NCBI RefSeq assembly: GCF_012571135.1
Contig: NZ_CP046216.1
Location: forward strand, 126,312 to 190,311
Direction: 5' to 3'
DNA: 64,000 nt
DNA from: Enterobacteriaceae endosymbiont of Donacia tomentosa
GTDB taxonomy: Bacteria; Pseudomonadota; Gammaproteobacteria; Enterobacterales; Enterobacteriaceae
Position 1 is the first letter of the stretch. Each line of letters begins with the position of its first letter. Positions 5,124-31,263 of the stretch are shown piece by piece. The notes beneath the pieces are model-generated. The model did not search any database. It was given only the letters and a program-made list of their open reading frames with translations, and had not been told where the DNA came from. Made by a program: the position numbers and the translations under genes.

Positions 5124-5957
5124 TTAATCATTATTAATCCATAATACACAAGATTTTTTATATAATTCTAAATTTTTTTTTAAAATATCAATTAAATCTG
5201 AACAAATTTCCTTTTTATTTATAAAATCATTAATCCAAAAAAATACAGTAAAATTTATAGAATTATTAGTAATTTCATCTAAAATTACATTAACAATAGA
5301 ATTTTTTATAATTCTATTGTTAACTGACACTGTATCTAATAATATTTTTTTTATAGTATTTATGTCTGTTTGTATTAATTCACGTGATATGCCTAAAGTA
5401 ATTTTATTACGATATTCGTTTGATTTGGAAAAATTTACTATATTTTCTGTAAGAATTTTACTATTGGGAACTGATATTATGCTTCCATTAAATGTTTTAA
5501 AAAGGGTACAAAAAATTTCCACATTAGTTATTTTACCAGTAATATTACCAATATTGATATAATCTCCTACTTTAAAAATACGAAAAGTAATAATTAATAA
5601 TCCTGATGCCAAATTAGATAATGCATTTTGCCATGCTAGACCTATTACTAATCCTATAGTACCAAATGCAGCAAATATTGATGATGTTTGTAATCCAATA
5701 CTACTTAAAGCACTTACTATAACAAATATTGTTAGACTATATTTTAGTATATTAGCAAGAAAACCAATTGTTATTGGATCTATTTGTTTAATAGCAAAAA
5801 TATTTTTTGTAGTTTTAGTAACAAATCTTACACCCCATAATCCAAAAAATAAGATGATTCCTGCTAAAATGAAATGTTCAAATTGATAAAAAATAAAATT
5901 TTTATTATTAAAAATCCAATATTTTATAAAATCAAATACACTAATAAATTTATTCAT
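5124..5957 (-). CDS. mscS: Small-conductance mechanosensitive channel MscS
   Basis: MscS is a heptameric inner-membrane channel that releases solutes on hypo-osmotic shock. The product has 277 residues (E. coli 286). Three membrane segments are visible: about 27-45, 63-86 and the pore helix about 92-126. The pore helix carries the small-residue packing pattern (IGLVIGLAWQNALSNLASG) followed by the hallmark FRIFKVGDYI entering the beta domain. The cytoplasmic vestibule domain follows and the last few residues of the E. coli tail are missing. It sits just downstream of fbaA, as in E. coli (mscS/yggB-fbaA-pgk), with 70 bases between the genes. Confidence 0.93.
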   Translation of the reverse strand: MNKFISVFDFIKYWIFNNKNFIFYQFEHFILAGIILFFGLWGVRFVTKTTKNIFAIKQIDPITIGFLANILKYSLTIFVIVSALSSIGLQTSSIFAAFGTIGLVIGLAWQNALSNLASGLLIITFRIFKVGDYINIGNITGKITNVEIFCTLFKTFNGSIISVPNSKILTENIVNFSKSNEYRNKITLGISRELIQTDINTIKKILLDTVSVNNRIIKNSIVNVILDEITNNSINFTVFFWINDFINKKEICSDLIDILKKNLELYKKSCVLWINND

Positions 5958-6027
5958 GTTCTAATAATCCATTATGTGAAATAATTTGTATTTTTTTTAT
6001 GATTAAAAAAATATATGATTTATTATT

Positions 6028-7107
6028 TTATAATATATTAACTGCATTTAATTCTTTGAATGTTTTTTCTAAACGTTTTTTTATAGATTTTTGTGACATT
6101 CTAATCCATGCTCTTGGATCATAATATTTTTTGTTGGGTTTTGTATCACCTTCAGGATTACCTAATTGTTTTTGTAAATATTTTTGATTTTTTGTATAAT
6201 ATTCTAATATTCCATTCCATGCTGCCCATTGTATATCAGTATCAATGTTCATTTTTACAACACCATAATTTATGGATTCTTGCATTTCCAATTCACTAGA
6301 ACCAGATCCTCCATGGAAAACAAAATTTAGAGGATTTTTAATAAGTCTATGCTTTTTACTAACAAAATTTTGAGAATATTTTAATATTTTTGGTAATAAT
6401 TTTACATTACCTGATTTATACACCCCGTGTACATTACCAAAAGAAGCAGCAATAGTAAATTGCGAACTAATTGAATTTAAATTTTCATAAGCATAATTCA
6501 CATCATAAGGATCCGTATATAATAATTTTTTTGTCAAATTACTATTATCTATTCCATCTTCTTCACCACCTGTACATCCTAATTCTATTTCTAAAGTCAT
6601 ATTAATTTTTGACATTCTTTTTAAATATTTACTGCATATATTAATATTTTCCTGAATAGATTCTTTTGATAAATCTATCATATGAGAAGAAAATAAAGTT
6701 TTTCCATATAATAAAAAATATTTTTCACTTTCTTCTAATAAACTATCAATCCAAGGTAATGTTTTTTTTGTACAATGATCAGTATGCAAAATAACTGGAA
6801 TACCATAGTGTTTAGCAATTTCATGAACATGCTTTGCACCTGAGATCGCTCCTATTATAGATGCCAATAAAGGATTTTTATTTTGTAATCCTTTACCAGC
6901 AATAAAAGATGCACCTCCATAAGAAAATTGAATAATTACCGGGGATCTTACTTTAGCTGCAGTTTCAAGAACAATATTTATAGAGTCAGTTCCTATACAA
7001 TTAACAGCAGGTAAAGCAAAATTATTTTCTTTTGCTATTTTAAATATAGTTTGTACATCATAACTAACAACAACACCAGGTTTTATATAATTTAAAATTT
7101 TAGACAT
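6028..7107 (-). CDS. fbaA: Class II fructose-bisphosphate aldolase
   Basis: This enzyme cleaves fructose-1,6-bisphosphate to two triose phosphates in the cytoplasm. At 359 residues it equals the E. coli length and aligns throughout. Visible motifs are the catalytic Asp and Zn ligand in LHTDHC (D110, H111), the glutamate ligand region ELGCTGGEEDG, NVHGVYK with a histidine ligand, and VFHGGSGS with the last histidine ligand. It lies between pgk and mscS on the minus strand, 69 bases after pgk, as in the E. coli pgk-fbaA operon. Confidence 0.97.
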   Translation of the reverse strand: MSKILNYIKPGVVVSYDVQTIFKIAKENNFALPAVNCIGTDSINIVLETAAKVRSPVIIQFSYGGASFIAGKGLQNKNPLLASIIGAISGAKHVHEIAKHYGIPVILHTDHCTKKTLPWIDSLLEESEKYFLLYGKTLFSSHMIDLSKESIQENINICSKYLKRMSKINMTLEIELGCTGGEEDGIDNSNLTKKLLYTDPYDVNYAYENLNSISSQFTIAASFGNVHGVYKSGNVKLLPKILKYSQNFVSKKHRLIKNPLNFVFHGGSGSSELEMQESINYGVVKMNIDTDIQWAAWNGILEYYTKNQKYLQKQLGNPEGDTKPNKKYYDPRAWIRMSQKSIKKRLEKTFKELNAVNIL

Positions 7108-17939: not shown

Positions 17940-18866
17940 ATGAATCATATTCCTGTTTTATTGAAAGAATCCATCAAAAATTTAAATATTAAAAATAATG
18001 GAACATATATAGATGCAACTTATGGTTGTGGAGGACATACAAAATTAATTTTATCTAAACTAAATAATGATGGACGTATTTTTGCTATAGATTGTGATAA
18101 TCAAACAATAATAATGAATAAAATTATAGATAAAAGAATTTTTTATATTAATGAAAAATTTTCTAACTTAGAATATATTATAAATAAAAAATTTATAGGT
18201 AAAATAGACGGAATCCTATTTGATTTAGGCATTTCTTCATTTCAATTAAATAATCCTTTAAGAGGATTTTCTTTTATGAATAATGGACCATTAGATATGC
18301 GCATGAACCAAAATAGTAAACTTACTGCTTACGATTTATTAAAAATAACAAGTGAAATAAAATTATCTTGTATACTAAAAAAATATGGGGAAGAAAAATT
18401 TCATAAAAAAATAGCATTTAACATAAAAAAATATATATTAAATAATAAATTAAGTAGTACACAGGATTTATCAAATTTAATTTGTTCTATCATACCTAAA
18501 AAAAATAGATTTAAACATCCTGCAACTAGATCCTTCCAAGCAATAAGAATTTTTCTTAATAAAGAACTAGATGAACTAAAAACAGCTTTACATGTTTCGT
18601 TAAAGTTATTAAAAAAAGGAGGTATTTTATGTGTAATTAGTTTTCACTCATTAGAAGATAGAATTGTTAAACATTTTATAAAAAAATATAGTTCATATAA
18701 TATATATAGTAATTTACCATTAACTGAAACAGAAATAAATAATTTATATTATATAAATAATAAATTTAGATTGAAAATAGTGAATAGAATATTTCCTTCT
18801 CAAAAAGAAATTTTTAATAATCCAAGATCAAGAAGTGCAATACTACGTGTTGCAAAAAAAATATAA
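17940..18866 (+). CDS. rsmH: 16S rRNA m4C1402 N4-methyltransferase RsmH
   Basis: RsmH (MraW) methylates N4 of C1402 in 16S rRNA using S-adenosylmethionine. The 308-residue product (E. coli 313) begins with the conserved HIPVLLKESI and has the SAM-binding motif DATYGCGGHT (25-34), the LFDLGISSFQLN block and RGFSFMNNGPLDMRM, and ends with the conserved PRSRSAILRVAKK. It is the first gene of the dcw-type cluster. mraZ upstream and ftsL and ftsI downstream, which flank it in E. coli, are missing; murE follows after 135 bases in which I see no gene remnant. Confidence 0.97.
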   Translation: MNHIPVLLKESIKNLNIKNNGTYIDATYGCGGHTKLILSKLNNDGRIFAIDCDNQTIIMNKIIDKRIFYINEKFSNLEYIINKKFIGKIDGILFDLGISSFQLNNPLRGFSFMNNGPLDMRMNQNSKLTAYDLLKITSEIKLSCILKKYGEEKFHKKIAFNIKKYILNNKLSSTQDLSNLICSIIPKKNRFKHPATRSFQAIRIFLNKELDELKTALHVSLKLLKKGGILCVISFHSLEDRIVKHFIKKYSSYNIYSNLPLTETEINNLYYINNKFRLKIVNRIFPSQKEIFNNPRSRSAILRVAKKI

Positions 18867-19001
18867 AAATAAAAAATATTTTTGCAAATGTCAAAATATT
18901 TATATATAAAAAAATATAATTTTGTTTTTAAACATAAATACATATTAATATAAAATTTTATTAAAAAAAAATTAATAAAAACAATTAAAAGGTTTTACAT
19001 A

Positions 19002-20504
19002 TTGAATATAAATAAGATAACTTTACAAAAATTATTGAAGAATTATATAAATCATAATTTAATAAAACATATTTTTATAAATAAAATTGTTTTAGATAGT
19101 AGACATATAAAAGGAAAAAATTGCTTATTTATAGCTATAAAGGGTCATAAAAATGATGGTAGAAATTTCATAGATGATGCTATCAATAATGGTGCTGCTG
19201 CTGTATTAACATATACGACTAGTAATTTATTATCTTATAATATAATTTTTAAAAATTTTATTCCGATAATTTTTTTTCCAAATTTACATAAATATATTTC
19301 ATATTTTGCTGATATATTATATGATCATCCTAGTAAAAAAATACCTGTTGTAGGTGTAACGGGTACGAATGGTAAAACCAGCGTAACAAATTTTTTAATG
19401 CAATGGACTCATATTTTAGGGAAAAATCCAGCGATCTTAAGTACTATAGGCAATGGTTTTTATAAAAAATTAAAATTAACTAATAATACAACTGATTCTG
19501 CTGTAGAAATACAATCTACATTAAAATATTTTGTGGATAAAAAATCAGATATTGTTTTTATGGAAGTATCTTCACATGGATTAGATCAATTTAGAGTTGC
19601 TAATGTAATATTTTCTACTGGAATATTTACAAATTTAAGCAGAGATCATTTAGACTATCATTTAAATATGAAAAATTATGAGTTAACTAAATGGAAATTT
19701 TTTTCTGATCATCAAATTAAAACAAAGATTATTAATATTGATGATAATGTAGGTTTAAAATGGTTTAAAAGATTATCTACTAGTAGTATCCCTGTAATGA
19801 CTAAAAAAATTTCATATAAATCAAATTTATTTTTTCAAGTTAAAAATATAAATTTTTTAAAAAATAAAACTATTATCACTTTTAATTCTAGTTGGGGGCA
19901 TGGTAAAATAAACACTGTTCTTTTAGGATATTTTAATGTTATTAATGTTATTTTAAGTATGACAACATTGTTAAGTTTAAATTTTTCCTTAAAAGAATTA
20001 CTAAAAACATCATATGAATTAAAACCAATTATAGGTCGTATGGAAAAAATATCATTAGGAAAAATGAGATACCCCACAATTATAATTGATTATGCTCATA
20101 CTCCTGACGCTTTAAAAAATATATTATTAACTATTCAATTATATTGTCAAGGTAAAATATGGTGTATATTTGGATGTGGTGGTGAAAGAGATATTGGGAA
20201 ACGTCATATAATGGGTTATATAGCTAATAAATTTTCAGATTATACTATTATTACAAGTGATAATTCAAGAACAGAAAATACGGCTGATATTATTAAAGAT
20301 ATTCTTAAGGGATGTTATAAATTAAATAACACTTGTGTTATTTTAAATAGAACTAAAGCAATATATTATGCAATATTTAACGCATATAAAGAAGATACTA
20401 TTTTAATAGCGGGTAAGGGACACGAAAATTATCAAATTATTGGGAATAAAATTTTTCATTATTCTGATCATCAAATTATAAAAAATATTTTAGAAAAAAT
20501 ATAA
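19002..20504 (+). CDS. murE: UDP-MurNAc-tripeptide synthetase MurE (meso-diaminopimelate adding), TTG start
   Basis: MurE adds meso-diaminopimelate to UDP-MurNAc-L-Ala-D-Glu. The 500-residue frame (E. coli 495) starts at TTG (19002), nine bases after an AAAAGG Shine-Dalgarno-like stretch; no ATG gives a full N-terminus. Visible motifs are the LDSR uridine-binding start, ATP loop GTNGKT (121-126), MEVSSHGLDQ, NLSRDHLDYH, DYAHTPDAL and AGKGHENYQ. The DAP-recognition motif is DNSR (420-423) instead of the usual DNPR: the contacting Asn and Arg are kept and Pro is Ser. Next is murF, one base after the stop. ftsL and ftsI are missing upstream. Confidence 0.95.
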   Translation: MNINKITLQKLLKNYINHNLIKHIFINKIVLDSRHIKGKNCLFIAIKGHKNDGRNFIDDAINNGAAAVLTYTTSNLLSYNIIFKNFIPIIFFPNLHKYISYFADILYDHPSKKIPVVGVTGTNGKTSVTNFLMQWTHILGKNPAILSTIGNGFYKKLKLTNNTTDSAVEIQSTLKYFVDKKSDIVFMEVSSHGLDQFRVANVIFSTGIFTNLSRDHLDYHLNMKNYELTKWKFFSDHQIKTKIINIDDNVGLKWFKRLSTSSIPVMTKKISYKSNLFFQVKNINFLKNKTIITFNSSWGHGKINTVLLGYFNVINVILSMTTLLSLNFSLKELLKTSYELKPIIGRMEKISLGKMRYPTIIIDYAHTPDALKNILLTIQLYCQGKIWCIFGCGGERDIGKRHIMGYIANKFSDYTIITSDNSRTENTADIIKDILKGCYKLNNTCVILNRTKAIYYAIFNAYKEDTILIAGKGHENYQIIGNKIFHYSDHQIIKNILEKI

Positions 20505-20505
20505 T

Positions 20506-21873
20506 ATGAATGAATTAATTAGTTTAAAAAAAATATCTAAAATCACAAATGGTCATTTAATAGGATTAAATCTTAAAATAAAAAATTTTTCAATAAATAG
20601 TAAAAAAATTAAAGATCATTGTATATTTATCGCAATTAATGGAAAAATTTTTGATGGTCATAATTTTATTAATAATGCTATTAGCAATGGGGCTATTGCT
20701 TTATTAGTAAATAAATTTGTGAGAATTAATAATATTCCACAAATAATTGTTGAAAATACTATTTTAGCTTTAGGAAAAATAAGTTTATGGAAAAGGAAAA
20801 AATTTAAATATAATGTAATTGGTATTACTGGATCTACTGGAAAAACATCAGTAAAAGAAATGACAGTATCTATATTAAAAAAAAAATATAATACTATTTT
20901 TACATTTCATAATATGAATAATCATATAGGTGTGCCGTTAACATTATTAAAACTATATAATAAGTATAGATGTGCAATAATTGAAATAGGAGGTAATAAA
21001 ATAAATGATATTAAATATCTTGGTAATCTAGTGCAACCTAATATAGCAATAATTAATAATATATCAGAATCACATATTGAAGGTTTTAAATCATTAAAAA
21101 ATATTATTAGAGAAAAAAGTAGTATTTTTAATTATTTAAAAGAGGATGGTATTGCGATTTTTAATAGTGACGATAAAAATCAAAAAGAAATTTTTAAAAA
21201 AATAAGTATTAGTAAGAAATTTTTTACTTTTTCTGTTTATAATAAAAATACAAATTTTTTTGCTAGTAATATAAAAATTTTTCAAGATAAAATCTTATTT
21301 AATTTAAATACTCCTCTTGGAGTAAGAATTGTTACACTATTTCTTTTTGGAGGTATACATAACATCAGCAACGCATTAGCGTCTAGCGCTTTATCTTTTG
21401 CAATGGGAGCATCTTTAGATGAAATAGTCAATGGATTAGAATGTTTTAAACCTATACAAGGTAGAATATATCCTATAAAAATAGGAGATAAAAAATTAAT
21501 TCTAAATGATGCATATAATGCAAATCCTAACTCTGTTAAAGTTGCTATAAAAGTTCTTCAAAATTTTTCTGGAGTTAAAATTTTAGTTATAGGAACTATG
21601 TTAGAATTAGGTACTCGTACTATATTTTTTCATAAAAAAGTTAGAGACATAATTTTACAATCTAATATTAATTATACTTTTAGTATTGGAAATTATGGTA
21701 AGTATATTACTCAAAATAATAAAAAAGCTAAACATTTTAATAGTAAAGAAGATTTAATAAACAATCTATTTTCATTAATAATGAGATTAGATAATTATAC
21801 TATTTTATTCAAAGGATCACGCAAAAATAATATGGAAATGTTAATTAATATCTTATTGGAGAAAATACAATGA
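20506..21873 (+). CDS. murF: UDP-MurNAc-tripeptide:D-Ala-D-Ala ligase MurF
   Basis: MurF adds D-alanyl-D-alanine to complete the UDP-MurNAc-pentapeptide. The 455-residue product (E. coli 452) has the ligase-family N-terminal NSKKIKDHCIFIAI block, ATP loop GSTGKT (109-114), MNNHIGVPLTLL, and the substrate-binding LNDAYNANPNSVK. The central ATPase and C-terminal domains are complete. It starts one base after murE and overlaps mraY by four bases (ATGA), so these genes are probably translationally coupled. Confidence 0.96.
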   Translation: MNELISLKKISKITNGHLIGLNLKIKNFSINSKKIKDHCIFIAINGKIFDGHNFINNAISNGAIALLVNKFVRINNIPQIIVENTILALGKISLWKRKKFKYNVIGITGSTGKTSVKEMTVSILKKKYNTIFTFHNMNNHIGVPLTLLKLYNKYRCAIIEIGGNKINDIKYLGNLVQPNIAIINNISESHIEGFKSLKNIIREKSSIFNYLKEDGIAIFNSDDKNQKEIFKKISISKKFFTFSVYNKNTNFFASNIKIFQDKILFNLNTPLGVRIVTLFLFGGIHNISNALASSALSFAMGASLDEIVNGLECFKPIQGRIYPIKIGDKKLILNDAYNANPNSVKVAIKVLQNFSGVKILVIGTMLELGTRTIFFHKKVRDIILQSNINYTFSIGNYGKYITQNNKKAKHFNSKEDLINNLFSLIMRLDNYTILFKGSRKNNMEMLINILLEKIQ

Positions 21874-22949
21874 TACTAATATTATTTCAATATTTGAAAT
21901 ATTATATTATATCTTTGAATTATTTTTTTTTTAGTTTAAAATTTCGTTCTATTATGACTTTTTTAACATCTTTTTGTATTACATTTTTTTATACTCCATA
22001 TTTTATTTTTTTTTTAAAAAAAAATAAAATTTCGCAAATAATTAGAAATGAAGGACCTATAACTCATTTAAAAAAAAAAAATACCCCTACTATGGGTGGT
22101 ATAATTATATTAGTATCTGTTTTTATATCTGTATTTTTTTGGGCACAATTATCTAATAAATATATATTCTATATATTAACTACAATTGTATTATATTCCA
22201 TAATCGGGTTTTTAGATGATTATTATAAAATAATCTTAAAAAATTCAAAAGGTTTAATACCTCTTCAAAAAATTTTACTACAGTCTATCATAATCATGAT
22301 AACATTAATATATATGTTTTTCAATGATACTAAAAATTTATATATACAATTAATTATTCCATTTGTTGAGAAAATTGAATTAAATTTAAATTTTACTTCA
22401 TATTTAATTATATCTTATTTTATTATTTTAGGAATAAGTAATTCTGTAAACTTAACAGATGGATTAGATGGTTTAGTTATAATGCCAATAATTTTTATTT
22501 CTATAGGATTAGGATTATTAGCATATTTTACGGGAGATATTAATCTTTCTAGATATTTTAATATTAATTATATAAAAAATACAAAGGAACTTATTATTAT
22601 ATGTTTAGCTATTGTGGGTTCTGGATTAGGTTTTTTATGGTTTAATACGTATCCAGCAAAAATTTTTATGGGAGATGTAGGATCTTTGACTCTTGGATAT
22701 ATTATATCTATAATAGCTATTTTAATAAAGCAAGAATTTTTATTCCTTATAATGTCTAGTATTTTTATAATAGAATTTATATCTGTAATAATTCAAGTAT
22801 TAAGATTTAAATATAGTAAAAAACGTTTTTTTTTAATGGCTCCTTTACATCATCATTTTGAATTAAAAGGATTAAAAGAATCTTGTGTTGTAGTTAGGTT
22901 TTGGATTATATCATTTATATTAGTTTTAATATCTTTAATAATTTTATAA
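21870..22949 (+). CDS. mraY: Phospho-MurNAc-pentapeptide transferase MraY (lipid I synthesis)
   Basis: MraY is an inner-membrane enzyme that transfers phospho-MurNAc-pentapeptide to undecaprenyl phosphate, giving lipid I. The 359-residue, strongly hydrophobic protein (E. coli 360) has about ten membrane segments, TPTMGGI near residue 72, the catalytic pair D116-D117 (FLDDYYK), NLTDGLDGL at 194-202, D269 in FMGDVGSL and the histidine motif APLHHHFELKG. A 12-A run (22070-22081) and a T10A9 stretch (22006-22024) lie inside the frame. The next gene, murD, starts 14 bases later. Confidence 0.96.
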   Translation: MILILFQYLKYYIISLNYFFFSLKFRSIMTFLTSFCITFFYTPYFIFFLKKNKISQIIRNEGPITHLKKKNTPTMGGIIILVSVFISVFFWAQLSNKYIFYILTTIVLYSIIGFLDDYYKIILKNSKGLIPLQKILLQSIIIMITLIYMFFNDTKNLYIQLIIPFVEKIELNLNFTSYLIISYFIILGISNSVNLTDGLDGLVIMPIIFISIGLGLLAYFTGDINLSRYFNINYIKNTKELIIICLAIVGSGLGFLWFNTYPAKIFMGDVGSLTLGYIISIIAILIKQEFLFLIMSSIFIIEFISVIIQVLRFKYSKKRFFLMAPLHHHFELKGLKESCVVVRFWIISFILVLISLIIL

Positions 22950-22963
22950 AAACATATAAAATA

Positions 22964-24274
22964 ATGAATAAAAAAATAGTAGTTATTGGTTTAGGAATAA
23001 CAGGTATATCATGCATAAATTTTCTTTTCAAAAGAAATCTTATTCCATATGTAATGGATGAATGTAAAAATCCAAAATTTTTAAAAAAAATACCATTAAT
23101 AGTTCCGTGTCATTTAGGATCTTTAAATAAAAAATGGATATTAGAAGCTGATTTAATTATCTTAAGTCCTGGTATTTCGATATTTCATCCCTATTTAGTA
23201 GAAGCAACTAATAAAGGAATTGAAATAATAGGAGATATAGAATTATTTAATCGTTATAATAAAACTCCTGTTATAGCTATAACAGGTACTAATGGAAAAA
23301 GTACTGTAACAGATATGATTGTTAAAGTTATGGAAAAAAATAACTTTAATATTGGTTTTGGAGGTAATATAGGCTATCCAGTATTAGATTTATTATCTTT
23401 TAAAAGAGATTTTTATATTTTAGAAATATCTAGTTTCCAATTAGAAACTGTAAAAAATTTAAATATATATATAGCTATTATTTTAAATATTTCTGAAGAT
23501 CATATGGATCGTTATCCTTTAGGTCTTGAACAATATCGTAATTTTAAATTGCGTATCTTTAAACAAGCTTCTATTTGTATTTATAATGCAGATGATTTGT
23601 TAACATATCCTAATATTTTTCATAAAAAAAAAAAATATATAACTTTTGGAAGATATCATGGAAAATATCATTTATTGTATGAAAAACAAAATTTTTTTTT
23701 AAAAATGGATGATAAAATAATTTTAAATTTTAATAAAACAAAGTTAATAGGAATACACAATTATTTAAATTCTTTAGCTGTTTTAGCGGTCACAGATATA
23801 TTAAAAATTCCTCAAAAAAAAGCTCTAAAAGAGATAAGTAATTATATAAATATAGATAATATATTACAAATTATACATGAAGAAAACAATGTTATTTGGA
23901 TTAATGATTCAAAATCTACTAATGTAGATAGTACAAAAGTTGCTTTAAAATACTTTTCCAAGAAAAAAAACATTTGGTTATTATTAGGAGGATATGATAA
24001 AAAATGTAAATTATTTCCTTTGGAAAAATATTTAAAAAAAAAAAATATATATATTTATTGTTTTGGTTTGGCAAAAAAACAAATATTATCTTTTTGTTCA
24101 AAAGCAGTACCAGTAGATACTATATCTCAAGCAGTACAACAAATAATAAAATTAGTACAACCCGGTGATGTGGTATTACTATCTCCCGCTTGTTCTAGTA
24201 TTGATCAATTTAAAAATTTTAAACATCGTGGCAAAGAATTTATTAAAATAGTAAAAAATTTTTATAAAAATTAA
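22964..24274 (+). CDS. murD: UDP-MurNAc-L-alanine:D-glutamate ligase MurD
   Basis: MurD adds D-glutamate to UDP-MurNAc-L-Ala. I place the start at ATG 22964 (MNKKIVVIGLGITG), giving 436 residues (E. coli 438); an upstream in-frame ATG at 22901 would add unrelated residues overlapping mraY. ATP loop GTNGKST (108-114), EISSFQLE, LNISEDHMDRY and NDSKSTN are visible, and the C-terminal LLSPACSSIDQFKNF is intact. Two separate runs of 12 A (23624-23635 and 24034-24045) sit in the frame and could cause transcriptional slippage. ftsW, which follows murD in E. coli, is missing: murG begins 18 bases later. Confidence 0.95.
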   Translation: MNKKIVVIGLGITGISCINFLFKRNLIPYVMDECKNPKFLKKIPLIVPCHLGSLNKKWILEADLIILSPGISIFHPYLVEATNKGIEIIGDIELFNRYNKTPVIAITGTNGKSTVTDMIVKVMEKNNFNIGFGGNIGYPVLDLLSFKRDFYILEISSFQLETVKNLNIYIAIILNISEDHMDRYPLGLEQYRNFKLRIFKQASICIYNADDLLTYPNIFHKKKKYITFGRYHGKYHLLYEKQNFFLKMDDKIILNFNKTKLIGIHNYLNSLAVLAVTDILKIPQKKALKEISNYINIDNILQIIHEENNVIWINDSKSTNVDSTKVALKYFSKKKNIWLLLGGYDKKCKLFPLEKYLKKKNIYIYCFGLAKKQILSFCSKAVPVDTISQAVQQIIKLVQPGDVVLLSPACSSIDQFKNFKHRGKEFIKIVKNFYKN

Positions 24275-24292
24275 TTAATTTTTAAGAATAAA

Positions 24293-25351
24293 ATGAATAA
24301 AAAAATTATTATAGTAGCTGGAGGTACAGGAGGACATATCAATCCAGCTTTAAACATTGCAAATGAATTAATAAAAAAAGGATGGGAAGTACGTTGGTTA
24401 GGTACATTTAACAGAATGGAAGCTAAAATAATTCCTAAAAAAGGTATATATATATATTTAATAAAATTTTTTAGATTTAAAAGTAGAAATATTTTTTTAA
24501 AATTTATTACTATATTAAAATTATTAACTTCTGTTTATAAATCAATTATTATTTATAAAAAATATAAACCAGATATAGTTTTAACAATGGGAAGTTATAT
24601 TTCAGGTCCTAGTGGACTTGCTGCATGGTTATGTAGAATTCCATTAGTGATACATGAACAAAATAGCATCCCAGGATTTACTAATAAAATTTTGTCTAAA
24701 ATAGCAACTAAGATATTACAAGGGTATCCTAATACATTAAAAAATGCAATTTGGGTCGGTAATCCAATTAATGAAAAAATTATTGAATTATCTTCGTATA
24801 AAAGATCTGTTATTAAATTTCATAAACCAATTCATTTACTAATTACAGGAGGTAGTCAAGGAGCACAAGTAATAAATTTTATAGGTGTGAAGTTGTCAAA
24901 AATATTAAAAAATAAAATATTAATTTTACATCAAGTAGGTAAAGGAAATTTAAAAAAAATACTAAATGAATATAAAAAAAATAAGGAAAATAATTTTCTT
25001 TTAAAAGAATATATATATGATATTCATGAGGCATATAAATGGGCTGATATTATTATTACTAGGTCAGGAGCAATAACTGTAAGTGAAATTAAAATCATAG
25101 GATTGCCTGCTATTTTTATACCTTACCCACATAAAGATCATCAACAATATTTTAATGCAATACATTTAGAAAAAATAGGAATTGCAAAAATATTTAAACA
25201 AAATAATTTAAATATTAATAATATTATTAATGTTATACTATCTTGGAATAAAAAAAAGTTAATAAAAATTTATAAAAAATTTAAAAATACACCTATAAAA
25301 AATTCGACAAAATTAATTTATAAAGAACTAAATGAAATTAATAGTTATTAA
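24293..25351 (+). CDS. murG: UDP-GlcNAc transferase MurG (lipid II synthesis)
   Basis: MurG adds GlcNAc to lipid I on the cytoplasmic membrane face, giving lipid II. The 352-residue product (E. coli 355) carries the glycine-rich loop AGGTGGHINPAL (9-20), the second loop TMGSYISGP, IHEQNSIPGFTN, the third loop TGGSQGAQ, and the UDP-binding ITRSGAITVSE with PYPHKDHQ. It directly follows murD, with no trace of ftsW between, and is followed by murC after 33 bases. Confidence 0.96.
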   Translation: MNKKIIIVAGGTGGHINPALNIANELIKKGWEVRWLGTFNRMEAKIIPKKGIYIYLIKFFRFKSRNIFLKFITILKLLTSVYKSIIIYKKYKPDIVLTMGSYISGPSGLAAWLCRIPLVIHEQNSIPGFTNKILSKIATKILQGYPNTLKNAIWVGNPINEKIIELSSYKRSVIKFHKPIHLLITGGSQGAQVINFIGVKLSKILKNKILILHQVGKGNLKKILNEYKKNKENNFLLKEYIYDIHEAYKWADIIITRSGAITVSEIKIIGLPAIFIPYPHKDHQQYFNAIHLEKIGIAKIFKQNNLNINNIINVILSWNKKKLIKIYKKFKNTPIKNSTKLIYKELNEINSY

Positions 25352-25384
25352 CTATAATAATTAATATTTTGAAATTAAAATTAT

Positions 25385-26854
25385 ATGATACATAAAAATA
25401 TAAATAGTAATATTTCTTTACGAGAAATATTAAAAATAAACAATATAAATCACATATATTTTATTGGCATTGGTGGTTCGGGTATGGGAGGTCTTGCCAC
25501 TATTTTAGTAAAATTAGGATATAAAGTTAGTGGATCAGATTTAGTATCTAATTTTATTACAAAAAAATTAATTCTATTAAATGTAAAAATATATTCAAAA
25601 CATGATGGAAATAATCTTAAAAATGTAGATTTAGTTGTTGTTTCTACGGCAATAAAAAATGATAATCCTGAATTAATTATTGCAAAAAAGTTAAATATTA
25701 TAATTATTAGCAGAGCACAAATGTTAGCTGAATTAATGAGATTTAATTATGGAATTACTATTACAGGAACACATGGTAAAACAACTACAACAGCAATGAT
25801 TTATGAAATATTTAAATCATCAGGATTAGATCCAACATTTGTTAATGGAGGAATTATAAAATCATCAGGATTATATGCTGACTTAGGATTAAGTAAATAT
25901 TTTATTGCAGAAGCAGATGAAAGTGACAAATCTTTTTTAAAATTAAATCCAATAATTAATATTGTTACTAATATTGAAAATGAACATTTAGAATATTATG
26001 ATAATAATATTGAAATATTAAAAAGCACTTTTTTAAATTTTTTAAAAAAAATTCCATTCTATGGATGTATTATTATTTGTATAGATAATAAAAATAATTT
26101 TGATTTATTTAATAAATATAAACATATTTTAAAATGTAAAATAATTACGTATGGATTTAATAATAATGCAGATATTAAAATATCTAACTATAGACAAAAA
26201 AGATATCAAAGTAAATTTAATTTATTAAAAACTAAAGAAAATACTAATTTAAAAATAGAATTAACAATTCCTGGTCTTCATAATGCATTAAATGCAACTG
26301 CTTCATTTGCATTATCATCCTATATAGGATTAAAAGATTCAAATATTTTGAAATCTTTAAAAAATTTTGGAGGCGTAAAAAGAAGGTTAGATATTTTAGG
26401 TACTTTTATTTTAAAAAAAAAATTTCAAGGAAATGTTATTGTGATTGATGATTATGGACATCATCCTACTGAAATTAATATGACGATTCACACTATAAAA
26501 AATAATTGGCCTAATAAAAATTTAATAATGGTTTTCCAACCACATAAATATACTAGAACTAAAAATTTATTGGAAGAATTCGTGAAAACATTATCTAATG
26601 TTAATTTATTATTTTTATTAAAAGTATATTCAGCTAGAGAAAATTATATTAAAAATGCTAACAGTAAAACACTATATAGAAAAATAAAAAAATTAGAAAA
26701 AACTCATCCTATTTTAATACGATCTAATAAATACAATGATATTGCATCAGAAATATATTTAAAATTAACAGGAAATGATGTATTAGTATTTCAGGGTGCT
26801 GGTGATATTAATAATATTTCAGCTTTCTTTATTAAAAATAAATTAAAACAATAG
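25385..26854 (+). CDS. murC: UDP-MurNAc:L-alanine ligase MurC
   Basis: MurC adds L-alanine to UDP-MurNAc, the first peptide step. The 489-residue product (E. coli 491) has the Rossmann start IHYIGIGG-like block (here IYFIGIGGSGMGG, about 24-36), ATP loop GTHGKTTTT (128-136), EADESDKSF, ENEHLEYY, GVKRRLDILG and DDYGHHPTEI, all usual for MurC. It sits between murG and ddlB in the normal order. Confidence 0.96.
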   Translation: MIHKNINSNISLREILKINNINHIYFIGIGGSGMGGLATILVKLGYKVSGSDLVSNFITKKLILLNVKIYSKHDGNNLKNVDLVVVSTAIKNDNPELIIAKKLNIIIISRAQMLAELMRFNYGITITGTHGKTTTTAMIYEIFKSSGLDPTFVNGGIIKSSGLYADLGLSKYFIAEADESDKSFLKLNPIINIVTNIENEHLEYYDNNIEILKSTFLNFLKKIPFYGCIIICIDNKNNFDLFNKYKHILKCKIITYGFNNNADIKISNYRQKRYQSKFNLLKTKENTNLKIELTIPGLHNALNATASFALSSYIGLKDSNILKSLKNFGGVKRRLDILGTFILKKKFQGNVIVIDDYGHHPTEINMTIHTIKNNWPNKNLIMVFQPHKYTRTKNLLEEFVKTLSNVNLLFLLKVYSARENYIKNANSKTLYRKIKKLEKTHPILIRSNKYNDIASEIYLKLTGNDVLVFQGAGDINNISAFFIKNKLKQ

Positions 26855-26875
26855 AGATGTTTTATAAAAAATATT

Positions 26876-27799
26876 ATGACTAAGAAAATAGCTGTTTTAC
26901 TTGGTGGAAATTCATCAGAAAGAGAAATTTCCTTAATGTCAGGTAAAGCAATTTTAAATGCATTAAAAAAATCTAATATTAATGCTTTTGGAATAGATCC
27001 ATTGCAATTCCCATTATTATATTTAAAAAAATATGGTTTTACAAAAATTTTTATAGCTTTACATGGGAAGGGAGGAGAAGATGGAATTTTACAAGGAGTA
27101 CTTGAATACTTAAATATTCCTTATACCGGGAGCGGTGTTTTAGCTTCATCAATAACTATGAATAAATTTATAACAAAAAATATATGGAAAGAAAATAATT
27201 TACCTGTATGTCCTCATTATTTATTAAGAAAAAAAGATTTTATAAAAAAAAATCATGCAAAAATTAAACAACAAATTCTAAAATTAAATTTACCCATTTT
27301 TATAAAACCTAACTGTACTGGATCTAGTTTAGGTATTTCTAAAGTTAATAATATTAATTATATATTTGATGCAATAGAAAAAGCCTTTATATATGATACA
27401 AGTGTTTTATTTGAAAAATATATTGAAGGAACAGAATTTACAGTAGGAATATTACATAATAAAGTATTACCCCCTATTAGGGTGGAACCAATAAATTCGT
27501 TTTATAATTATCAAGCCAAATATTATTCTAATTCTACTCAATTTTTTTGTCCTAGCGGACTAGATTATAAAAAAGAAAAAGAACTATCAAAAATAGCTTT
27601 AGATGCATGGAATATAGTAGAATGTAGTGGGTGGGGACGTATTGATGTTATTTTAGATACAAAAGATCATTTTCAATTATTAGAAATAAATACTGTCCCC
27701 GGGATGACATCACATAGTTTGTATCCTATGGCTGCGAAGAAAATTGGATTATCTTTTCAGGATTTAGTTCTTAAAATTTTGAATTTAACAGATAAATAA
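26876..27799 (+). CDS. ddlB: D-alanine:D-alanine ligase DdlB
   Basis: Ddl joins two D-alanines for MurF. The 307-residue product (E. coli DdlB 306) shows the ATP-grasp pattern: VLLGGNSSEREISLMSG at the start, ALHGKGGEDG, the VFEKYIEGTEF-type substrate loop, and EINTVPGMTSHSLYP at the end. In E. coli ftsQ, ftsA, ftsZ and lpxC follow; here the next 126 bases (27800-27925) hold no recognisable gene, and then comes a convergent DciA-like gene. Confidence 0.96.
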   Translation: MTKKIAVLLGGNSSEREISLMSGKAILNALKKSNINAFGIDPLQFPLLYLKKYGFTKIFIALHGKGGEDGILQGVLEYLNIPYTGSGVLASSITMNKFITKNIWKENNLPVCPHYLLRKKDFIKKNHAKIKQQILKLNLPIFIKPNCTGSSLGISKVNNINYIFDAIEKAFIYDTSVLFEKYIEGTEFTVGILHNKVLPPIRVEPINSFYNYQAKYYSNSTQFFCPSGLDYKKEKELSKIALDAWNIVECSGWGRIDVILDTKDHFQLLEINTVPGMTSHSLYPMAAKKIGLSFQDLVLKILNLTDK

Positions 27800-27925
27800 T
27801 TTTTTTATATAAAAAGATAATATTTAAAAAAATATAACTTTAATTTTCAATAATATTTCAAGTTTTTATAAAAAATAATATTTCTTCTTATTAATAACAT
27901 ATACAATCTAAGAAATATTTTATAT

Positions 27926-28411
27926 TTAATGTTTAGATGCTGATTTTGCAAATCTTTCTATTATATAACGTAATTTTATAGGACTTTTTCGTGCTAAATT
28001 TAATAATAAATTAGCACTATATTTACTCAAAATATTTTTTTTATATGTATTTTTTTCATTTGGTATAATAATATTTTTTTTTATATAAAATGCAGGATTA
28101 ATTTGAATATTAATATCTATTAACGACGGGATAAGATTTTTTTTTAAAAAAAATATAATATTAGTTTTTTCATATAAAAATCTAGTCATAGAACTAGCAT
28201 TACATGTTTCTATAATTAGAATACCATCTTTAAAATTTTTGATATTATACCAATTATGTAATTCAACAGGTATATATTTTTTGATAAATGTATTAATTTT
28301 TATTAAAATATTTGTATGTAAATATATTTTAAATAAAATTTTTCTATAAGAAGAATAATAATAATTTTTTTGAAAAATTTGTTTAATTGATAATAATTTA
28401 TTATGACGCAT
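27926..28411 (-). CDS. DUF721/DciA-like protein
   Basis: A 161-residue basic protein. The central part (about residues 33-105) fits the DUF721/DciA pattern: a helix, LHNWYNIKNFKDGILIIET, a block where family members read W or R before RL (here SSMTRFLYE), and a strand ending in IQINPAF. The C-terminal helices (LSKYSANLLLNLARKSP, then RYIIERFA) resemble the gammaproteobacterial form. In many gammaproteobacteria a DUF721 gene lies between lpxC and secA, divergent from secA, which is exactly this position; E. coli K-12 has secM there instead. DciA helps load the DnaB helicase where DnaC is absent. The assignment is by pattern only; the protein diverges and could be a decaying relic. Confidence 0.62.
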   Translation of the reverse strand: MRHNKLLSIKQIFQKNYYYSSYRKILFKIYLHTNILIKINTFIKKYIPVELHNWYNIKNFKDGILIIETCNASSMTRFLYEKTNIIFFLKKNLIPSLIDINIQINPAFYIKKNIIIPNEKNTYKKNILSKYSANLLLNLARKSPIKLRYIIERFAKSASKH

Positions 28412-28524
28412 AAAATTTATCCTTTTATAAATTTAATAAAAATATTATATATATTTTTTTATAAAAAGAATCATGAAATAAAAATTATTTAATTGAAACT
28501 ATTTATTTTATTAAGAGTGTATAT

Positions 28525-31263
28525 ATGTTTATAAAATTTTTAACAAAAATTTTTGGTAATCATAACGATTATGTTTTACGACGTATTCAAAAAATAGTTA
28601 ATACTATTAATAGCATGGAAAAATATTTTGAAAAATTAACTGATATAGAACTAAAAAATAAAACTTTATATTTTAAAAATAAATTAAAAAATAATTTTTC
28701 TTTAAAAGATATTTTACCGGAAGCTTATGCTACAGTGCGAGAAGCAAGTAAAAGAATATTTGGTATGAGACATTTTGATGTTCAATTAATGGGAGGTATT
28801 GTATTAAATAATAATTGTATAGCAGAAATGAGAACAGGAGAAGGAAAAACATTAACATCAACATTATCAGCATATTTAAATGCTCTTAGTGATAAAGGGG
28901 TACATATAGTTACTGTTAACGATTATTTAGCAAAAAGAGATGCTATAAATAATAAGTCTCTATTTGAATTTTTAGGATTGACTGTTGGTATTAATTTATC
29001 TGGCATGTCATTAAACGAAAAAAGAATAGCTTATAAAGCAGATATTACTTACGGAACTAATAATGAATATGGATTTGATTATTTAAGAGATAATATGGTT
29101 TTTAACTATAATGAAAAAGTACAACGTTCTTTAAATTATGCTATTATAGACGAGGTGGATTCTATACTTATTGATGAAGCACGTACTCCTTTAATCATAT
29201 CAGGAACAGCAGAAGATAGTTCAAAACTATATATTAGTATAAATAGAATTATTCCTAAATTAATATATCAATCCGAAGAAGATTCAGATACCTTTCAAGG
29301 TAAAGGACATTTTTTTATAGATGAAAAAACGCGTCAAGCATATTTAACTGAAAAAGGTTTAATTTTTTTAGAAAAAATACTAGAAAAACAAAATATAATC
29401 AAAAAGGGTGAATCTTTATATTCTAGTAATAATCTTATTATTTTACATCATGTACTTGAAGGATTAAGAGCACATAAATTATTTAAGAAAAATGTTGATT
29501 ATATATTAAAAAATAATCAAATTATTATTGTAGATGAACATACTGGAAGATTAATGAAGGGTAGAAGATGGTCTGAAGGATTACATCAAGCAATAGAAGC
29601 AAAAGAAGGTGTTAATATTAATGATGAAAATCAAACTTTAGCATCTATTACATTTCAAAATTATTTTAGATTATATAAAAAACTATCAGGAATGACAGGA
29701 ACTGCAAGTACAGAAGCTTCTGAATTTAAAGAAATTTATAAATTAGATACAATTGTGATTCCCACAAATAAGCCAATGATAAGAAAAGATTTACCAGATT
29801 TAATATATTTAACAGAAAAAGAAAAGATAAAAGCTATTATAAAAGATATAAAAAATAAAAATCTTACAGGACAACCTGTATTAGTAGGTACTGTTTCTAT
29901 AGAAAAATCTGAATTAATTTCAAAAAAATTAAGAAAATTAAAAATAAAACATAATGTTTTAAATGCAAAATTTCATGCTAAAGAAGCTGAAATAATAGCA
30001 CAAGCAGGTAAAAAAAATTCAGTAACTATTGCCACTAATATGGCAGGAAGGGGTACAGATATTGTTTTGGGTGGTATTTTCACATTAGATGCTGCAAATT
30101 GTAATATAGATAAAACTCATACATTAAAACTAATTTGGGAAAAAAAACATAATGAAGTAGTTCAATTAGGAGGTTTATATGTTATTGGAACGGAAAGGCA
30201 TGAATCTAGAAGAATAGATAATCAGTTAAGAGGAAGATCAGGACGTCAAGGTGATAGTGGTTCGTCAAGATTTTATTTATCAATGGAAGATTCTCTAATG
30301 CGTATTTTTGCATCAAAAAATATATCTAATTTAATGACTAAATTAGGTATGAAGCATAATGAGTCTATTACTCATCCTTGGATAACTAAAGCAATATCTA
30401 ACGCACAAAAAAAAGTGGAACATTATAATTTTGATATACGTAAACAATTACTTGAATATGATGATGTAATTAATGATCAACGTTTAGCAATATATTCACA
30501 GAGAAATAAATTATTAAAATCACGTAATATTAATCAAATAATAAAAGATTTTAGAATATATGTTTTTGAGAAAAAAGTAAATGATTTTATAGAATTTGAT
30601 GACTTTATAGAAGAAGAATTTAATTTTAAAAGTTTTAAAAATTATTTTATGAAAGTATTTAATTTAAAAATACCTATTCAAGAATGGATTAATTCATATA
30701 AAGAAAATAATAAAGAAATTTTTAATAAAAAAAAACTTTTAAAAAAAATTATTGATTTTGCAGAAAGAGAATATGTAAAAAAAACGGAAAAGCTTAATGA
30801 AGAAAAACTAAATGACTTTGAAAAAAATATTATATTAAAAACTTTAGATAATTTGTGGAAAGAACATCTTTCTGCTATAGAATATTTAAAACAGGGTATA
30901 CATTTAAGAGGATATGCTCAACAAGATCCTAAACAAGAATATAAACGTGAATCTTTTCATATGTTTAATTTAATGTTAAATACTTTAAAAAAAGAAGTAA
31001 TAATTAATTTAAGCAAAATAGATATGAGTACAATATTTAGTAATCATAGTAATTTTGTTTTTTCATTGTTAGAAAAAAATTTTTTAAATGAAAATGTGTT
31101 AAAAACAAGCAATTTAAAAATTTTAAAAAAAATATCGGATACTTCTATAAAAAAAGAAATAAATAAGATAAATTTTTTTAATCAAAAAATAGGTAGAAAT
31201 AAAAAATGTCCTTGTCTTTCTGGGAAAAAATATAAATTTTGTCATGGTTTAATAATAAAATAA
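28525..31263 (+). CDS. secA: Preprotein translocase ATPase SecA
   Basis: SecA is the motor that drives proteins through SecYEG. The 912-residue product (E. coli 901) has Walker A RTGEGKT (103-109), the DEAD-type [15 protein letters not shown], the preprotein crosslinking domain, NMAGRGTDI and [13 protein letters not shown], a helical scaffold and a complete zinc-binding tail with C895, C897, C906 and H907 ([13 protein letters not shown]), the SecB and phospholipid-binding element. No SecM-like arrest peptide gene lies upstream; the 113-base upstream gap is shared with the divergent DciA-like gene. SecD, SecF, YajC and LepB of the same route are also in this window. Confidence 0.97.

Follow-up and report, generated by a model that had tools for sequence, protein, structure and literature searches.

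Can a symbiont go on building a cell wall after losing the genes that divide it, and by what means would it then divide? This question is raised by a 64,000-nucleotide stretch of DNA (the window) from the Enterobacteriaceae endosymbiont of Donacia tomentosa, whose division and cell wall (dcw) cluster at 17940..31263 holds the genes for peptidoglycan precursors and lacks ftsZ and its partners. With about 22% G+C, the window spans 126312-190311 on contig NZ_CP046216.1, which is 484,935 bases long; the assembly has 491,697 bases in 2 contigs.

A dcw cluster without division genes

A sequence-only reading of the window had claimed that rsmH, murE, murF, mraY, murD, murG, murC and ddlB were kept, and that ftsL, ftsI, ftsW, ftsQ, ftsA and ftsZ had gone cleanly, leaving gaps of 135 (rsmH-murE), 18 (murD-murG) and 126 bases (ddlB to the next open reading frame, ORF). 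NCBIfam models confirmed each of the eight reading frames, the gap sizes agreed with the sequence and the ORF coordinates, and tblastn detected no remnant of the six genes in the cluster. The features are:

17940..18866, + strand: rsmH, first gene at the left of the cluster (TIGR00006, 353 bits, cut-off 154)
18867..19001, no strand: gap of 135 bases, from the sequence, at the expected site of ftsL and ftsI (FtsL and FtsI without tblastn match)
19002..20504, + strand: murE (NF001123, 596 bits, cut-off 586)
20506..21873, + strand: murF (TIGR01143, 386 bits, cut-off 289)
21870..22949, + strand: mraY (TIGR00445, 376 bits, cut-off 192)
22901..24274, + strand: murD (TIGR01087, 383 bits, cut-off 212)
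24275..24292, no strand: gap of 18 bases, from the ORF coordinates, at the expected site of ftsW (FtsW without match)
24293..25351, + strand: murG (TIGR01133, 314 bits, cut-off 250)
25385..26854, + strand: murC (TIGR01082, 488 bits, cut-off 335)
26876..27799, + strand: ddlB (NF002378, 379 bits, cut-off 243)
27800..27925, no strand: gap of 126 bases, from the sequence, at the expected site of ftsQ, ftsA, ftsZ and lpxC (all four without match)
27926..28411, - strand: DciA-like ORF of 161 aa (PF05258, E=3e-4, 21.4 bits, below the curated cut-off of 24)
28525..31263, + strand: secA, right-hand end of the cluster (NF009538, 1192 bits, cut-off 814)

The true start of murD probably lies further in than the listed TTG, the profile match beginning at residue 25.

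The cluster was searched by tblastn (E<0.01) with Citrobacter FtsL, FtsI, FtsW, FtsQ, FtsA, FtsZ and LpxC as queries, in a genus sample of 24 genomes made up of the window genome (G000) and 23 relatives. None of the seven proteins was found at the cluster in any of the 24 (lpxC, ftsQ and ftsL were not searched elsewhere), and the controls MraY, MurG and DdlB matched in every genome. The mur genes, mraY, murG and ddlB stand in the conserved gammaproteobacterial dcw order in the window and in all 24 genomes, gene order in the relatives being taken from best matches. To the earlier gene list we add the DciA-like ORF, which tblastn placed between ddlB and secA in 24/24 genomes; in the window it is separated from secA by 113 bases. 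E. coli has DnaC in place of DciA, and a kept DciA-like gene in an Enterobacterales symbiont is worth attention.

Elongation genes kept, divisome core gone

The sequence-only reading had set a whole-genome search for ftsZ, ftsA, ftsI and ftsW as the test that could overturn it, and none of the four was found. For FtsZ, a profile search of the whole window genome was negative, and the same profile was positive in 13 of 14 control genomes. Only one transpeptidase was detected, penicillin-binding protein 2 (PBP2; 645 bits, cut-off 455), and only one protein of the shape, elongation, division and sporulation (SEDS) family, RodA (407 against a cut-off of 337; the FtsW model gave 277, below 337.5). 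With PBP2 as the sole transpeptidase and RodA as the sole SEDS protein, neither FtsI nor FtsW was found in this genome. Since a single transpeptidase domain remains, the genome no longer encodes a class A PBP of the ordinary bifunctional type (the search did not extend to a lone glycosyltransferase).

The proposed check of mreB, murJ and the mrdA and mrdB products had the opposite outcome, with MreBCD, PBP2, RodA and MurJ all present. The rodA gene adjoins that for PBP2, and mreB, mreC and mreD are contiguous, each above its cut-off. Between the window genome (locus L096) and that of the Donacia marginata symbiont (L097, G088), identity is 93% for MreB, 53% for MreC and 50% over 86 residues for MreD, a very uneven evolutionary rate inside a single operon.

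One candidate for ftsA was rejected. PF14450 matches each of the 24 genomes once, at about 7-8 kb; in the D. tomentosa and D. marginata symbionts the match lies inside mreB, and that protein falls far short of the cut-off of the NCBIfam FtsA model. From its same position and frame length, the match in the other 22 genomes would also be mreB.

The window genome has kept the elongation machine and lost the divisome core. The earlier proposal, lipid II made with neither a Z ring nor a dedicated septal synthase, is supported by the presence of PBP2, RodA, MreBCD and MurJ and by the failure to find FtsZ, FtsA, FtsI and FtsW. Its companion suggestion, a wall for shape or elongation only, agrees with the gene set without being established: in FtsZ-less Chlamydia, elongasome proteins start septal wall synthesis (PMC10591338).

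The same pattern throughout the genus

The MurC of the window was closest to those of Donaciinae (reed beetle) endosymbionts, with 63-68% identity to Donacia and 61-63% to Plateumaris; a contig scan with the MurC alignment returned free-living bacteria and no Donaciinae. In a tree of the eight cluster proteins, the window genome is sister to all other sampled Donacia symbionts (support 100). One Citrobacter locus and one Brenneria locus were used as reference and outgroup. The names of relatives are inferred: G088 as D. marginata, G205 as D. thalassina, G218 as Macroplea appendiculata and G219 as Neohaemonia nigricornis.

By profile search, FtsZ was found in 0/24 genus genomes. All 24 have the stripped cluster ending in the dciA-like gene and secA, and each of the 24 has one SEDS protein, MraY and MurJ. 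PBP2 stands beside RodA in 23/23 genus loci examined, the G218 locus not being among them. The mur genes are under purifying selection, with a ratio of nonsynonymous to synonymous substitution rates (dN/dS) of 0.18-0.40 in six close pairs. The pattern first described from a single genome is common to the whole genus sample; what could be seen only in the relatives is Min without FtsZ, described below.

An artefact, with ftsZ and its partners lying on an unassembled piece or diverged beyond detection, is hardly credible. Although the window assembly consists of 2 contigs whose circularity is not established, its estimated completeness is 99.67, and the profile that found no FtsZ in the genus detected it in 180/198 sampled family genomes, including 37 genomes of at most 0.9 Mb. 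Since FtsZ is missing and the cluster stripped in all 24 genomes, the loss predates their common ancestor; most simply, FtsZ was lost once, before the Donaciinae symbionts diversified. That ancestor had lost FtsZ, FtsA, FtsI and FtsW and had kept the lipid II pathway, MurJ, MreBCD, PBP2 and RodA.

Outside the genus, 16 family genomes lack FtsZ. MraY was found in 10 of them and MurJ in 13; the SEDS protein was intact in two (G077, G132), broken in two and absent from 12. Among reduced FtsZ-less symbionts, wall precursors are not rare, but wall precursors together with an intact SEDS protein are. Six of these genomes (G005, G015, G021, G030, G156, G166) have MraY and MurJ with no SEDS protein at all, that is, precursors without RodA or FtsW. 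Three others (G063, G100, G102) have a MurJ match without MraY, the match in G102 containing 3 TGA codons. The FtsZ-less genome G132 (locus L157) has an intact RodA beside PBP2 and no MinC, in an assembly with 8% contamination.

Min genes that outlived FtsZ

In reduced genomes of the family MinC tracks FtsZ: 34 of the 37 FtsZ-bearing genomes of at most 0.9 Mb have MinC, and it was found in 0/16 FtsZ-less genomes outside the genus. Within the FtsZ-less genus it was found in 16/24 genomes, 15 of which have it at full length (254-259 residues). MinD lies beside MinC in all 16. MinE has an open frame in 13 of these; it is broken in G211 and was not detected in G210 and G219. The D. marginata symbiont has MinC, MinD and MinE above the NCBIfam cut-offs (TIGR01222, TIGR01968, TIGR01215). 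The Donaciinae MinCDE system has its members present in relatives such as this one and its FtsZ target absent from every genome of the genus sample.

On the tree, the genomes without Min fall into three separate lineages: five Plateumaris-type genomes, the window genome, and G215 with G216. No recognisable min sequence was found in the rnt-tsaB interval of any of these eight genomes; the gaps between the flanking matches measure 149-288 bases in the Plateumaris-type genomes, 855 in the window genome and 318-369 in G215 and G216, against 2,106 in D. marginata. The literature would suggest that Min is kept in the window genome. This was ruled out, as it has no MinC and its rnt-tsaB interval is 720 bases without recognisable min sequence. 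The minCDE genes were lost additionally, and later, in the lineage of the window. In the Neohaemonia-type genome (L177, G219), positions 5645-6902 hold a min operon in mid-decay: the N-terminal half of minC is gone, minD is whole and minE was not found.

To assess selection, dN/dS was computed by NG86 with 200 bootstraps; in DNA of 20% G+C, dS is rough. Five close pairs keep minE and have non-overlapping tree paths, and a sixth, G210-G211, has no intact minE. In the five pairs the combined dN/dS of minC, minD and minE was 0.11-0.16, and in no pair did any of the 200 bootstraps reach 1; murC, murG, mraY, secA and ddlB all had higher values in every pair. The main driver of the low combined value is minD (0.05-0.15). 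Taken alone, minC gave 0.20-0.28, comparable to the mur genes; in one pair it exceeded murC (0.28 vs 0.27). Values for minE were noisy, the gene being too short for reliability: 1.35 in G088-G203, with 54/121 bootstraps at or above 1, and 5/200 and 2/200 such bootstraps in G217-G218 and G205-G209. In G210-G211, where minE is lost, the combined value was 0.38 and that of minD 0.29, which points to relaxed selection after the oscillator broke down.

Over 120 non-independent pairs, median dN was 0.085 for minC, 0.058 for minD, 0.117 for secA and 0.162 for murC. The median dN/dS of minC in these pairs equalled that of murC (0.39 for both), which argues against stronger selection on minC than on the mur genes. 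The idea of MinC as a decaying pseudogene was rejected as well: dN/dS was below 1 in all six close pairs, although for minC a few bootstraps reached 1 or more in two pairs (2/200 and 4/200).

At the position of E. coli Gly10, none of the 15 full-length MinCs of the genus has Gly: the residue is Gln in 12 and Lys in 3. In 108 other MinCs, not all of them necessarily from FtsZ-bearing genomes, it is Gly (103), Ser (4) or Asn (1). A Gly10 to Asp change in MinC weakens FtsZ inhibition and leaves MinD binding intact (PMC4215534). The RSGQ motif, which serves MinD binding (PMC6803595), is intact in 16/16 genus MinCs. MinC may have let go of FtsZ, but this is suggestive only, because the Gly change is probably one inherited event and the new residues are Gln and Lys, not Asp. 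Between Macroplea and Donacia the N-terminal domain of MinC shows 56-61% identity, and other MinC pairs with a C-domain identity of 70-72% show 43-62%. Apart from the Gly change, the domain is not in decay, a hint that it serves another partner.

How FtsZ-less cells with a wall may divide

The symbionts of D. thalassina (putatively G205) form filaments in the larva and round cells in the adult (PMC12508126); division or fragmentation must therefore occur in an FtsZ-less genome. We favour, with a probability of roughly 0.55, the reading that wall synthesis and division run on MreB-RodA-PBP2, a mode that would parallel the MreB-led division of Chlamydia but have evolved independently of it. RodA-PBP2, the only SEDS-transpeptidase pair left, would be guided by MreB and make all of the wall, including any septal or bud wall required, so that division would proceed without FtsZ; membrane pinching by the host or excess membrane may complete the cut. 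In line with such a role, chlamydial MreB with RodZ can sustain division of E. coli when FtsZ activity is absent (PMC7029139).

Chlamydia also has no FtsZ, with MreB, MreC, PBP2 and RodA present. However, it is an unrelated lineage that retains FtsI, FtsW, FtsQ, FtsL, FtsB and FtsK (PMC10591338), whereas FtsI and FtsW are missing in Donaciinae symbionts, and this weighs against the proposed parallel. Moreover, many symbionts divide although both FtsZ and the wall are missing, so a cut led by the host is possible. Constriction would then be the work of beetle proteins (dynamin-like, actin, or encoded by bacterial genes transferred to the nucleus), and the elongation machine would make wall for shape only. 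A precedent comes from Kinetoplastibacterium, an endosymbiont of trypanosomatids in which most division genes are gone: a host-encoded dynamin-like protein acts at its division site (PMC12505957). We consider this explanation less likely for Donaciinae symbionts. They are extracellular for part of their cycle (PMC7289800), which speaks against it in that phase, and their complete lipid II pathway and Rod machine in 24/24 genomes exceed the obvious need of a cell moulded by its host.

Cell shape bears on a further, still less probable explanation, in which there is no dedicated machine: excess membrane and wall remodelling would lead to irregular, L-form-like scission, and RodA-PBP2 would limit shape only. 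The larval symbionts of M. mutica are indeed irregular in shape, but adult symbionts are round and regular (PMC12508126), and the strong conservation of MreB relative to MreC noted above suggests a demanding role.

If division runs on MreB-RodA-PBP2, the surviving Min proteins probably position that machine or the chromosome. We tentatively propose, at somewhat under even odds, that the MinCDE oscillator outlived its sole established target and was retargeted to the MreB-RodA-PBP2 zone (or the chromosome), with the N-terminal domain of MinC acting on a partner other than FtsZ. Under such retargeting, Min-based placing would be dispensable in Min-less lineages such as that of the window.

Comparison with known systems

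Walled FtsZ-less bacteria are already known in Chlamydia and Wolbachia supergroup J, and the new part is that Min is kept in relatives of the window genome. Like Donaciinae symbionts, Wolbachia supergroup J lacks FtsZ, keeps MreB, RodA and PBP2, and keeps most lipid II genes; unlike them, it is an alphaproteobacterium without MurJ (24/24 here), and, on our reading of the table in PMC10591338, the Wolbachia columns list no minC, minD or minE (MinC in 16/24 here). Carsonella-type insect symbionts have also lost FtsZ from a tiny genome (PMC4164004), but lost lipid II synthesis, whereas the mur cluster and MraY are kept here in 24/24. Buchnera likewise belongs to Enterobacterales, lives in insects and has a reduced genome, and many of its strains possess a Min system (PMC10591338, PMC12508126); it is, however, not among the FtsZ-less bacteria of PMC10591338, which names only Chlamydiae and Wolbachia J.

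The review PMC4164004 proposed that loss of ftsZ in endosymbionts follows loss of the wall. The Donaciinae symbiont genus is a counter-example, with the wall pathway kept and the Z ring gone in 24/24 genomes. FtsZ-independent roles of Min in chromosome segregation and membrane-protein patterning are disputed (PMC6803595). Close FtsZ-less relatives with and without MinCDE, living in collectable beetles, form a natural experiment that makes these roles testable.

For these symbionts, Reis et al. 2020 (PMC7289800) reported that peptidoglycan synthesis is retained, and its main text has no word starting with "fts". A 2025 paper (PMC12508126) cites minCDE and mreBCD, reads minCDE as symbionts regulating their own division and the up-regulation of minC as a possible division block, and names FtsZ 0 times in the main text. 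The inference from minCDE needs correction, as these symbionts have no FtsZ. In the open-access literature, supplements and subscription journals being outside the scope, we found no paper pairing "Donacia" with "ftsZ" and, by titles and the starts of abstracts, no description of Min without FtsZ in symbionts.

Elsewhere in the window, at 202-2598 on the - strand, hisD and hisC form a single open frame of 798 aa, which passes the cut-offs of both NCBIfam models. Locus L093 of D. marginata likewise shows one frame, cut, with its start inside HisD.

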